Positions 9,062-35,727 of a stretch of 64,000 nucleotides of DNA are shown piece by piece (within the stretch, counting starts at the first letter, position 1; every line of letters begins with the position of its first letter). Origin of the DNA: Erinaceus europaeus (lineage: Eukaryota > Chordata > Mammalia > Eulipotyphla > Erinaceidae); assembly GCF_950295315.1 (NCBI RefSeq), contig NC_080171.1:113156093-113220092 (forward strand), written 5' to 3'. The notes below the pieces were generated by a model. It was given only the letters and a program-made list of their open reading frames with translations. It was not told the DNA's origin and did not search any database. The position numbers and the translations under genes are program-made.

Positions 9062-9261
9062 NNNNNNNNNNNNNNNNNNNNNNNNNNNNNNNNNNNNNNN
9101 NNNNNNNNNNNNNNNNNNNNNNNNNNNNNNNNNNNNNNNNNNNNNNNNNNNNNNNNNNNNNNNNNNNNNNNNNNNNNNNNNNNNNNNNNNNNNNNNNNNN
9201 NNNNNNNNNNNNNNNNNNNNNNNNNNNNNNNNNNNNNNNNNNNNNNNNNNNNNNNNNNNNN
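9062..9261. other. Assembly gap (200 N)
   Basis: An even run of 200 N, most likely a placeholder of unknown real length. It lies about 100 bp before the Vingi fragment and on the downstream side of NXNL2 exon 1, so it could hide Vingi 5' sequence or other DNA. Confidence 0.99.
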
Positions 9262-9362: not shown

Positions 9363-10333
9363 GAGAACAGCTCTCTGATATCTGATTACTGTAAAAAATG
9401 GCGACTAATCCCTAGCACTGCAAAAACGGTATCATCTGTTTTCCATCTACACCATGCCTCGGCCTCACGTGAGCTTAATGTGCAGCTTGGCGATACGAGA
9501 ATCCGGCATGAAGCCCAGCCAGTCTATCTTGGCGTTACTCTCGATCACACTCTGTCATTCCACAAACATCTCATAAAAACTGCAGCAAAGGTGGGCGCGA
9601 GGAATAACATCATTGCAAGACTGGCCAGCTCCTCATGGGGCGCGAGTGCTTCCACACTACGATCATCCTCTCTGGCATTATGCTATTCCACTGCAGAATA
9701 CTGTGCCCCAGTATGGTTCCGTAGCCCCCATGTCCACTTGGTCGATTCCAAATTATATTCCTCCATGAGGATAATTTCTGGAACCATCCATTCCACCCTG
9801 GTTCCATGGCTGCCAGTTCTTAGCAACATCGGCCTGCCAGATATTCGTCGGGATGCGGCATCATCTAAGTTCATTTCCCATGTCTACGCTCGACCGGACC
9901 TGCCAATATACGCGGATATCTTCGCCCACCCTGTCCAACGCTTGACGTCTCGTCACCCAATCTGGCCCCCTTCGCCTACACTGAACTTCTCTGTTCCAGA
10001 CTCTTGGAAACAGAGTTGGCAGTCAGCTGAGGTCAAGAACAAACACCTCATCACAGACCCCTGCGAGCGTCAACCCGGCTTTGACCTAGCACGTTATGAT
10101 TGGGCCCTCCTCAATCGCTATCGAACAGGCCATGGCCGGTGCGCCGCTATGTTCCATCGCTGGGGAGCCAGAGACGACCCGAACTGCCCCTGCGGCTCCA
10201 GACAGACTATGACCCACATAGTCAACGACTGCTACCTCTCCATATTCAAAGGAGGTCTCGAAACTTTACATCAGGCTCAACCTGACGCTGTTGACTGGCT
10301 ACGGAAGAAGGGCAAACGCTAGAAGAAGAATAG
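9363..10333 (+). mobile_element. Vingi non-LTR retrotransposon, 5'-truncated, reverse transcriptase C-terminal part
   Basis: The frame is open from 9363 to the TAG at 10320-10322, 319 codons, with no frameshift. Early residues SDYCKKWRLIPSTAKT and then YLGVTLDHTLSFHKHL match the end of the palm and the thumb region of Jockey/Ingi-type reverse transcriptases. Further on, ALCYSTAEYCAPVW is a hallmark of that group. A Cys-rich motif CPCGSRQTMTHIVNDC follows, and the protein ends in WLRKKGKR. No RNase H domain follows, as expected for Vingi. The YxDD catalytic region is missing: the copy starts after it, about 100 bp from an assembly gap. The 3' tail is gaagaagaa, not poly(A). A 7-bp agaacag at 9364-9370 and again just after the tail may be a duplication, but is weak. 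Confidence 0.85.
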
Positions 10334-20193: not shown

Positions 20194-20302
20194 TGTTCTT
20201 CTTCTAGCGTTTGCCCTTCTTCCGTAGCCAGTCAACAGCGTCAGGTTGAGCCTGATGTAAAGTTTCGAGACCTCCTTTGAATCTGGAGAGGTGGCGGTCG
20301 TT
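20194..20302 (-). mobile_element. Vingi 3' end, 5'-truncated (109 bp)
   Basis: On the minus strand the element reads from the NDRHLSRFKGG part of the ORF through WLRKKGKR, stop, and a gaagaagaaca tail. It is bounded by a perfect 11-12 bp duplication, gattctgttgt, at 20183-20193 and 20303-20313. The clean duplication and full identity in the last 60 bp point to recent insertion. Confidence 0.88.
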
Positions 20303-20552
20303 GATTCTGTTGTAAGTTACTTCTTCACACCAGAGGGCAGTGTAAATCCAGCCCCCACAGAATGCATGCAACTGCAACGGAGGATGGGATCCCTCACACC
20401 TACTGAAGTCAGGTATAAAAATAACTGCAAATGTTTGTACTGGGTTTTCAGTACATCTATCGATTCCAAGCTTAACCCTCTCCCCCAATCTTCTGGTGCT
20501 TTAAACATTTTACTACCTCTGCCCACTTCCTGGTCCTTGCCAACCTTTCTTT

Positions 20553-30706: not shown

Positions 30707-31320
30707 GCAGAGAACTTTGAAGGAAAGAGAACTGTAACCATTTTGTTCTGTGCAGGATTTCAGGTAGATTATGAGAGGATTTATGTATGTCCACATTTAT
30801 AAAAAATTGGACATAAGGGTGACCTGGCTGCGACATGTCACAGGGCTGATTCGGCTGATCTGGCTGGCTGGGCAGGTGTCCCCTCCCTCCTCACTGCTCC
30901 ATGTGCCTTCCTCCTGACACTGCTGGCTCAGTGGAAGAGGACCTTTCCTGCCAAAGACCTTACCTGCCAACAGAGTCTTTGGTTGCAGGTATACCAGTAA
31001 GCTGTTCTCCCCGGCTAGAACCTCCAAACAAGCTCTTACATTTATAAAATATGCTAAAAGGGAAACATACTTTAGCAACTACATGACTAGCACTGCCGCT
31101 GAATTACGTTAGAACTGGCTTATTTATAAGCTACAGTAAAGATCTGGAAACTGTCAGCATTTGAAAGTTTAGTTACGCCTGTGTCACCTCCAGTTAATGT
31201 CAGTTTGAGAGTACACAGGCTTTTCTTCTCAACACACCCTTTAAGGAGTTCCCCATACCCCAGCAATCTTGACAGTCATATCTCTTGAGCACAGGAAAGA
31301 CTCTGTTGCAATTTATATAA
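30707..31320. other. Unique sequence
   Basis: No gene or repeat recognised. Confidence 0.45.
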
Positions 31321-34672: not shown

Positions 34673-34911
34673 TTCTTCTTCTTCTTCTAGCGTTTGCCCT
34701 TCTTCCGTAGCCAGTCAACAGTGTCAGGTTGAGCCTGATGTAAAGTTTCGAGACCTCCTTTGAATCTGGAGAGGTGGCAGTCGTTGACTATGTGGGTCAT
34801 AGTCTTGTCTGTAGCCGCAGGGGCAGTTCGGGTCGTCTCTGGCTCCCCAGCGATGGAACATAGCGGCGCACCGGCCATGACCTGTTTGATAGCGATTGAG
34901 GAGGGCCCAAT
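34673..34911 (-). mobile_element. Vingi 3' end, 5'-truncated, with one frameshift
   Basis: The minus strand reads WALLNRYQTGHGRCAAMFHR and continues to the ORF end and a (gaa)5 tail. Compared with the copy at 9.4 kb, one extra A in the gacaagact stretch (near 34807) breaks the frame between the Cys-rich motif and MTHIVNDC. The frame downstream again reaches RKKGKR and stop. No convincing target-site duplication was found. Confidence 0.85.
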
Positions 34912-35515
34912 ATGGCATACCCTCCTGAGATGCCGGTTATCGACTGGACTCCAGCCAGCTAAGTACCTCAGACATTTTAAGCTCTCCCCTGAAAGCCTGC
35001 TTTGAGAAGGACAATTTTGTTCCTCCTAGCATGACAAATCAGACTTAGAAATAGACCTCTGGCTAAAAGTATTTTATTATTTTACTACACTATTTATAAG
35101 GCAACTCAAAAACAGTTTGCTAAAGTTAGGTCTCTAGTAATTCTACACACACACACAGCACTCAGGATCAGGAACTACTTCCATTTGTTTCTCCAATGGG
35201 AACACCAGCAGCCCACCTCAGAGCCATCACACATAACAGCAATCAGATATCTCACAAATTCTTTAGGGGACAAACTCAAGGCAAAAGCTTTAAAACAATT
35301 TCCATAATCTACATTTGAGTAGAATTCAGAAAGCTTAGTCTCAACTTTAAACTGGTGATTAAACTGGTTTTGGAAGGTGTTCTTCCTGCCATGGCGATTA
35401 CCGTCTAAATTGAGACCTGGATGGCACGTGCACGTTATCTTCTACAGAGGCCATTACGTAGCTCATGCTGCAGCTCAAGTTCTTATGTTAAAGCATTAAT
35501 GTTAAATCAAGTTAA
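34912..35515. other. Unique sequence between two Vingi copies
   Basis: No gene or repeat recognised; a short (AC)6 at 35145. Confidence 0.45.
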
Positions 35516-35524
35516 AGCATTAAT

Positions 35525-35594
35525 GGGATGCATTGGATCGACCTTCTCGTGGTGCATCCCGTGAGTCCCCATTTATTGGGGAAACTGACGATCC
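35525..35594 (+). ncRNA. Candidate HDV-like self-cleaving ribozyme at the 5' end of a Vingi derivative
   Basis: The stretch folds by hand into the five-helix nested double pseudoknot of delta-like ribozymes, in the right order. P1 is GGGATGC (35525-35531) with GCATCCC (35554-35560), 7 bp. P2 is GGATCG (35535-35540) with CGATCC (35589-35594), 6 bp. P3 is ACC (35541-35543) with GGT (35551-35553), closing the 7-nt loop L3 TTCTCGT. P4 is CCCC (35567-35570) with GGGG (35578-35581). The J4/2 strand AAACTGA (35582-35588) offers a cytosine at 35585 in a CTGA context, where the catalytic C75-type residue belongs. Cleavage would fall just before G35525, exactly where the target-site duplication ends. 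Such ribozymes are known at the 5' ends of R2, L1Tc (Ingi clade) and other non-LTR elements. Activity is inferred, not shown. Confidence 0.82.
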
Positions 35595-35717
35595 TTCCTA
35601 GCCGACTGAATCCACATGGATCCCAGTCACTTTCAAAGCCAGCAACAAGCAGACATCAGGCTCAACCTGACGCTGTTGACTGGCTACGGAAGAAGGGCAA
35701 ACGCTAGAAGAAGCAGC
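35525..35717 (+). mobile_element. Non-autonomous Vingi derivative (193 bp, internally deleted)
   Basis: This compact element is flanked by a 9-bp direct repeat, agcattaat, at 35516-35524 and 35718-35726. It joins a 5' leader (ribozyme plus about 55 bp) to the last 60 bp of the Vingi ORF: from 35652 it matches the copy ending near 10333 base for base, including ggcaaacgctag and a gaagaag tail. The junction lies near 35651 (acatcaggc). Coding capacity is lost, so mobilisation would need a full Vingi in trans. Hedgehog genomes are known to contain several internally deleted Vingi families. The left flank holds a second copy of aaagcattaatg at about 35490, so the duplication call has a small ambiguity. 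Confidence 0.85.
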
Positions 35718-35727
35718 AGCATTAATG

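Follow-up and report, generated by a model that had tools for sequence, protein, structure and literature searches.

Does a short mobile-element copy in the hedgehog genome begin with a self-cleaving ribozyme? We examined a 64,000-nt stretch of the Erinaceus europaeus genome, hereafter the window, in which an initial annotation had placed an HDV-like fold at the exact 5' end of a Vingi derivative. The candidate ribozyme occupies positions 35525-35594 of the plus strand, with a predicted cut 5' of G35525. From its letters and from comparison with other copies, we conclude that, in both the hedgehog Vingi LINE and its short derivatives, the opening 70 nt very probably form an HDV-like self-cleaving ribozyme that releases the 5' end of the RNA.

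The pairing potential of the segment from G35525 to C35594 fits the HDV-like double pseudoknot, with helices P1-P4, P2 contiguous with P3, and P3' contiguous with P1', so that P3 would stack directly on P2 and P1'. On the plus strand, P1 would join GGGATGC (35525-35531) to GCATCCC (35554-35560) over 7 bp, and P2 would join GGATCG (35535-35540) to CGATCC (35589-35594) over 6 bp. P3 (ACC/GGT, 35541-35543/35551-35553, 3 bp) encloses the L3 loop TTCTCGT (35544-35550); within this hairpin (35541-35553), U35544 (T35544 in the DNA) and G35549 are candidates for the reverse wobble, and C35546 is the P1.1 base. Its partner would be G35561 (C-G in 25 of 27 distinct rows of the alignment described below), giving a single P1.1 pair, as a second would be T-T. 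The P4 hairpin (35566-35582) has a 4-bp core (35567-35570/35578-35581), which becomes 6 bp (TCCCCA/TGGGGA, with a 5-nt loop) if T35566-A35582 and A35571-T35577 are added. In the HDV-like consensus, the catalytic C lies in J4/2 and is followed by N-R-A. Here J4/2 contains CTGA (35585-35588), with C35585 as the candidate catalytic base; these letters are identical in 32/32 aligned copies, which are ~97% alike. The initial annotation had placed all the helices in order with these lengths, had described every pair in P1, P2, P3 and P4 as Watson-Crick, and had named C35585; our check of the letters and pairs confirmed each of these points. Thus, those class features of HDV-like ribozymes that can be checked in a sequence are present except the second P1.1 pair and a score at the Rfam gathering level.

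A descriptor scan, which the initial annotation had proposed as a check, singled out this site. The descriptor allowed G-U pairs and fixed the L3 U and C, the P1.1 G and CNRA; it was built from the HDV-like consensus with the sequence already known. It matched once across both strands of the window, at 35525, and four times in dinucleotide shuffles (434 × 63.8 kb, one strand), which corresponds to 1.4e-7 matches per base. When the core letters were left free, the window yielded 28 passing start positions on the plus strand and 22 on the minus strand, many of which formed runs with a 2-nt spacing. The helices are therefore unconvincing by themselves, and the core letters are required. With the P1 strands fixed and the remaining letters shuffled, the other ribozyme features arose at a frequency of 3e-5.

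We also compared the site with Rfam. In a Cmscan run of 301 bases against 4227 families, HDV_ribozyme (RF00094) was the top of four matches (27.5 bits, E 0.033), and the model's first P1 position was aligned to G35525, the same register as in our fold. The score is far under the gathering value of 50 bits, a threshold that reflects curation and not a functional requirement. At gathering, Rfam reported nothing in the whole window except a 7SK match. This 7SK RNA match (87.1 bits, 30809-31106, plus strand) is perhaps a retroposed copy. Cmscan of eight further loci recovered RF00094 for L003, L006 and L073, with scores of 25.8-27.5 bits, and did not report it at E≤10 for the other five, L040, L044, L046, L055 and L071. 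A search of the 2.72-Gb assembly, in which 86 of 48,892 candidates were scored after a first-look filter, gave one place at E≤10 (32.3 bits, E 8.16), a value not significant by itself. The sequence there is a further copy of the same 5' end, whose P4 carries a deletion. A random landing on a LINE-type copy is unlikely, because such copies (5,121 × 70 nt) make up ~0.013% of the genome, although the use of the filter tempers this argument. Of 14 control genomes, four gave a match at E≤10 in the same search, and none gave one above the cut-off.

The candidate heads a short, internally deleted Vingi derivative (35525-35717, plus strand) that consists of the 5' 128 nt and the 3' ~61 nt of the LINE, followed by a GAA/GCA tail. 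The 5' part corresponds to LINE copies such as L044, and the 3' part (35653-35713, +) is 98-100% identical to the 3' ends of three other copies in the window. An ATG at element nt 92 (35616-35618, +) opens the long frame in LINE copies and is a relic here. Judged by its sequence, the element has the SIDE-type architecture, that is, a 5' ribozyme-like region and a LINE 3' end joined by internal deletion. It is flanked by a target-site duplication (TSD), AGCATTAAT(G) on the 5' side (35516-35524, or 35525 with the G) and AGCATTAATG on the 3' side (35718-35727), both read on the plus strand. Because the duplication reads AGCATTAAT(G), G35525 can be assigned to either the target or the element. The 5' flank (35487-35525) contains the motif GTTAAAGCATTAATG two times, 24 nt apart, in addition to its copy in the 3' TSD; this is a local duplication that dates from the insertion or earlier. 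In L003, L006, L066 and L073, the TSD ends exactly ahead of GGG, which settles the boundary that the window copy leaves ambiguous. The coincidence of the predicted cut with the TSD boundary, as originally proposed, therefore agrees with these four copies, while in the window copy G35525 itself may belong to either side.

Comparison of copies showed that many independent insertions, both LINE-type and short, start with the candidate ribozyme. Forty short copies were scored from 745 candidates by a ranking on score that favors complete ends; 36 aligned from query base 1-3, and 28 of these from base 1. For the LINE type, 40 ends were scored from 2,255 candidates with a query taken from L044, whose base 1 is a T, and alignment began at query base 1 in 4, base 2 in 35 and base 3 in 1. 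Flanks were read for eight of these 40 ends: the element began GGGATGC in six, AGGATGC in one and CGGATGC in one, and the upstream sequence was unrelated among all eight. TSDs of 8-13 nt that ended between -1 and +2 of position 1 were found in 13 of the 29 short copies with both flanks present, compared with 0 of 812 swapped flank pairs; the remaining 16 had no such TSD. When the boundary was shifted upstream by at least 5 nt, no single shift gave such a TSD in more than 2 of the 29. The LINE-type copies, the deleted copies and the TSDs together support the placement of the fold at the exact 5' end of hedgehog Vingi elements.

Exact 5' ends would also be predicted by a fixed transcription start. 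The best-surviving alternative, although an unlikely one, is that an internal promoter sets the 5' end and that the structure is a plain P1 hairpin acting as a promoter, RNP or translation element, with a coincidental or inactive delta-like fold. A nested hairpin is indeed the predicted minimum-energy fold, at -29.9 kcal/mol versus -23.8 for the nested part of the ribozyme fold (P2 not counted); the ribozyme fold would need P2 and tertiary contacts to prevail over it. Moreover, in L1Tc a single 5' element acts as both promoter and ribozyme (PMC8256844). However, a P1 hairpin would leave the rest of the ribozyme to arise at the low frequency seen in the shuffles with fixed P1 strands. At least 100 copies are identical to the 70-nt LINE type (0 mismatches in all matches listed), so there is no decay in recent copies. 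Furthermore, among the 13 TSD-bearing copies, an extra G precedes position 1 only in L062 (another extra base is present in L060, L075 and L077). There is thus little sign of a reverse-transcribed cap, though G's of the target overlap the junction in L001, L065, L067 and L071 and could mask an extra G there.

The parent LINE is ~3.1 kb long, and the first 128 nt of the window element are its 5' end, as seen in L044, L040, L046 and L055; L044 matches this end from base 2, and L040 lacks the first 6 nt. Vingi clade LINEs encode an APE endonuclease and a reverse transcriptase (RT) and are not known to encode an RNase H. A 689-aa piece of L040 matched PF03372, PF14529 and PF00078 (APE endonuclease and RT); its 305-aa C-terminal piece matched no family at E≤0.1, and no RNase H match was found. 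This predicted domain layout is consistent with Vingi, a clade name that we take from papers citing Vingi in hedgehogs and not from a tree. Relatives, among the best 120 of 420 matches, come from turtle, eel, coelacanth, insects and metagenomes. In L046 (contig C85) and L055 (contig C99), the 5' end lies on the strand opposite the RT, resembling twin-primed LINE insertions. Besides the short element, the window contains a Vingi copy with a 319-aa RT C-terminal frame (9363-10330, +), whose start is hidden by a run of N upstream (9062-9261), and two 5'-truncated 3' pieces on the minus strand, a short one at 20196-20310 and another at 34679-34911.

The 5' end is abundant. Genome-wide, we counted 3,893 exact matches to the 35-nt P1-P3 core, 3,989 places with ≤3 mismatches from the window 70-mer and 5,121 places with ≤3 mismatches from the LINE-type 70-mer; the reversed control gave 0 in each case. 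The last two sets may overlap, because the 70-mers differ at only four positions, and the ribozyme type alone says nothing of the length of the element behind it. The window type is the one found in the short copies that we compared. Three internally deleted forms with different deletion junctions all retain the candidate ribozyme; two of these junctions have a single known example, L070 for one and a copy in L004 for the other. The abundance of the window type would suit an active ribozyme that serves mainly the spread of short derivatives or host RNA processing and not the LINE's own cycle. We regard this as very unlikely, as LINE-type 5' ends carry the ribozyme too and their type is represented by the larger of the two sets.

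Variation was examined in an alignment of 32 of 33 ribozymes over all 70 positions, L078 being omitted for its 4-nt insertion. Because the aligned copies were chosen by similarity, their likeness is weak evidence of constraint. With G35525 numbered as 1, C61 and the CNRA letters did not vary in any of the 32. Recurrent changes were T9C in J1/2 and T50C in L4; T23C in L3 occurred in all four LINE-type copies, C35T in P1, which yields a G-U pair, in three LINE-type copies, and C43A, which removes the outer P4 pair, in 13 of 27 distinct rows. Changes at CpG sites were G25A or C in L3 (5/32 copies, the reverse-wobble G being retained in 27/32), C65G or T at the end of P2 (four copies, to G in two) and G37A in P1.1 (two copies). 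We equate G25 with the conserved L3 G of R2 ribozymes, whose change to A abolished cleavage in one R2 (PMC3774820).

Across the 32 copies, pairs were retained in 204/224 cases for P1, 187/192 for P2, 95/96 for P3 and 147/160 for P4, and every ribozyme feature was intact in 12. The initial annotation had held that its proposal would fail if other Vingi 5' ends lacked these pairings or broke them without compensation. The pairings are mostly kept, and some breaks, such as C43A, stand without compensation. The compensating changes for which it had suggested a search did not appear: in 27 distinct rows of copies ~97% alike, 0 of 23 pairs were altered on both sides, and no covariation measure rose above the shuffle control. 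The relatives therefore show retention and not covariation. When the partners were slid by 1-3 columns, 25-49% of cells were paired instead of 93.4%; any structure fitted to these sequences must behave in this way. No Vingi relatives outside hedgehog were found in viral contigs by protein, core DNA or a 26-sequence alignment, nor in genome contigs by the same alignment. Functionless chance resemblance, to which the low Rfam score, the lack of covariation and the frequency of helices without core letters might point, is the least probable reading of all, given how rarely the shuffles match with core letters and that this match sits on an insertion boundary.

For a ribozyme that releases the RNA, we propose the following course. 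A copy would be transcribed within a longer RNA, and the ribozyme would fold behind the polymerase. It would cut just before G35525, with C35585 as the general acid, the role that the catalytic C has in HDV. The freed RNA would have nucleotide 1 as its very first base, with a 5'-OH. Its target-primed reverse transcription would produce an insertion with the 5' junction at nucleotide 1, again bearing a complete ribozyme. For a deletion derivative, this 5' end plus the ~61-nt 3' end accepted by the Vingi RT would be enough. In the LINE, the ATG at element nt 92 lies 21 nt downstream of the candidate ribozyme. We infer folding in the cell, cleavage, a role in retrotransposition, a 5'-OH RNA and cap-independent translation from this ATG. 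In addition, the 5' strand of P1, extended by one base of flank (35524-35533), is complementary to the start-codon region (35616-35625) at 9 of 10 nt; the two could form a switch between the ribozyme and start-site pairing, and cleavage may in this way be coupled to translation.

Kojima et al. reportedly described hedgehog Vingi-1 with its non-autonomous families in 2011, and that description is not known to include a ribozyme. Host, domain layout and internally deleted derivatives indicate that ours is the same element family. HDV-like ribozymes at the 5' end are known in R2, R4 and RTE (PMC3774820) and in L1Tc (PMC4035085), and SIDEs, consisting of a ribozyme and a 3' end, are known in Drosophila (PMC3414825). 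The R2 ribozymes have been tested experimentally and share the present arrangement, SIDEs included (PMC3414825, PMC3774820). As in the hedgehog elements, the HDV-like fold is 5'-terminal, and short internally deleted forms retain the 5' ribozyme and the 3' end; Drosophila R2 is cut at the element's 5' end. In R2 species with a cut at this end, junctions vary by microhomology and extra bases (PMC3774820), and the hedgehog junctions resemble them in having G's that overlap or a single extra base. The window P3-L3 core also agrees with two R2 catalytic-region primers at 12/13 and 11/13 nt (PMC3414825), and the LINE-type L3 has one more difference from them than the window type. In contrast, R2 is rDNA-specific and has not been found in mammals (PMC5753468), whereas Vingi, with its APE endonuclease, lies at scattered sites, is flanked by TSDs 8-13 nt long where these are seen, and numbers thousands of copies.

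The L1Tc/ingi clade is similar in that the Pr77 region of L1Tc/ingi elements and short derivatives (SIDER) carry a 5' HDV-like ribozyme; however, the host is a trypanosomatid and Pr77 doubles as a promoter (PMC4035085). The CPEB3 ribozyme is HDV-like and mammalian, but it occupies a single conserved intronic site instead of heading a mobile element (PMC8256844). In searches of the open-licence PMC literature, we found no report of a 5' HDV-like ribozyme in Vingi or in any mammalian LINE, and an earlier mention is possible; the main text of a paper on African hedgehog LINEs and SINEs (PMC12026660) mentions neither Vingi nor a ribozyme. A mammalian case of a ribozyme-headed LINE, as the sequence suggests here, would be new, the kind being already known from insect and trypanosome elements. 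The hedgehog case matters in part because R2, a well-studied LINE with a 5' ribozyme, has not been reported from mammals.

Beyond this, we put forward a broader picture that is possible but rather doubtful as a whole: a recently expanded mammalian LINE may free its RNA by a delta-type ribozyme, leaving it uncapped with a 5'-OH, translation of the ORF 21 nt behind the ribozyme may be cap-independent, and hedgehog transcripts may self-cleave in place owing to sense copies that number in the thousands. If the candidate cuts, the count of HDV-like ribozymes in the hedgehog could reach several thousand. The animal would then offer a natural mammalian system for ribozyme-dependent retrotransposition and for an uncapped LINE mRNA and its translation. 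Likewise, 5' ribozymes would extend from the L1Tc/ingi clade to Vingi, and the common descent of both ribozymes would become testable.
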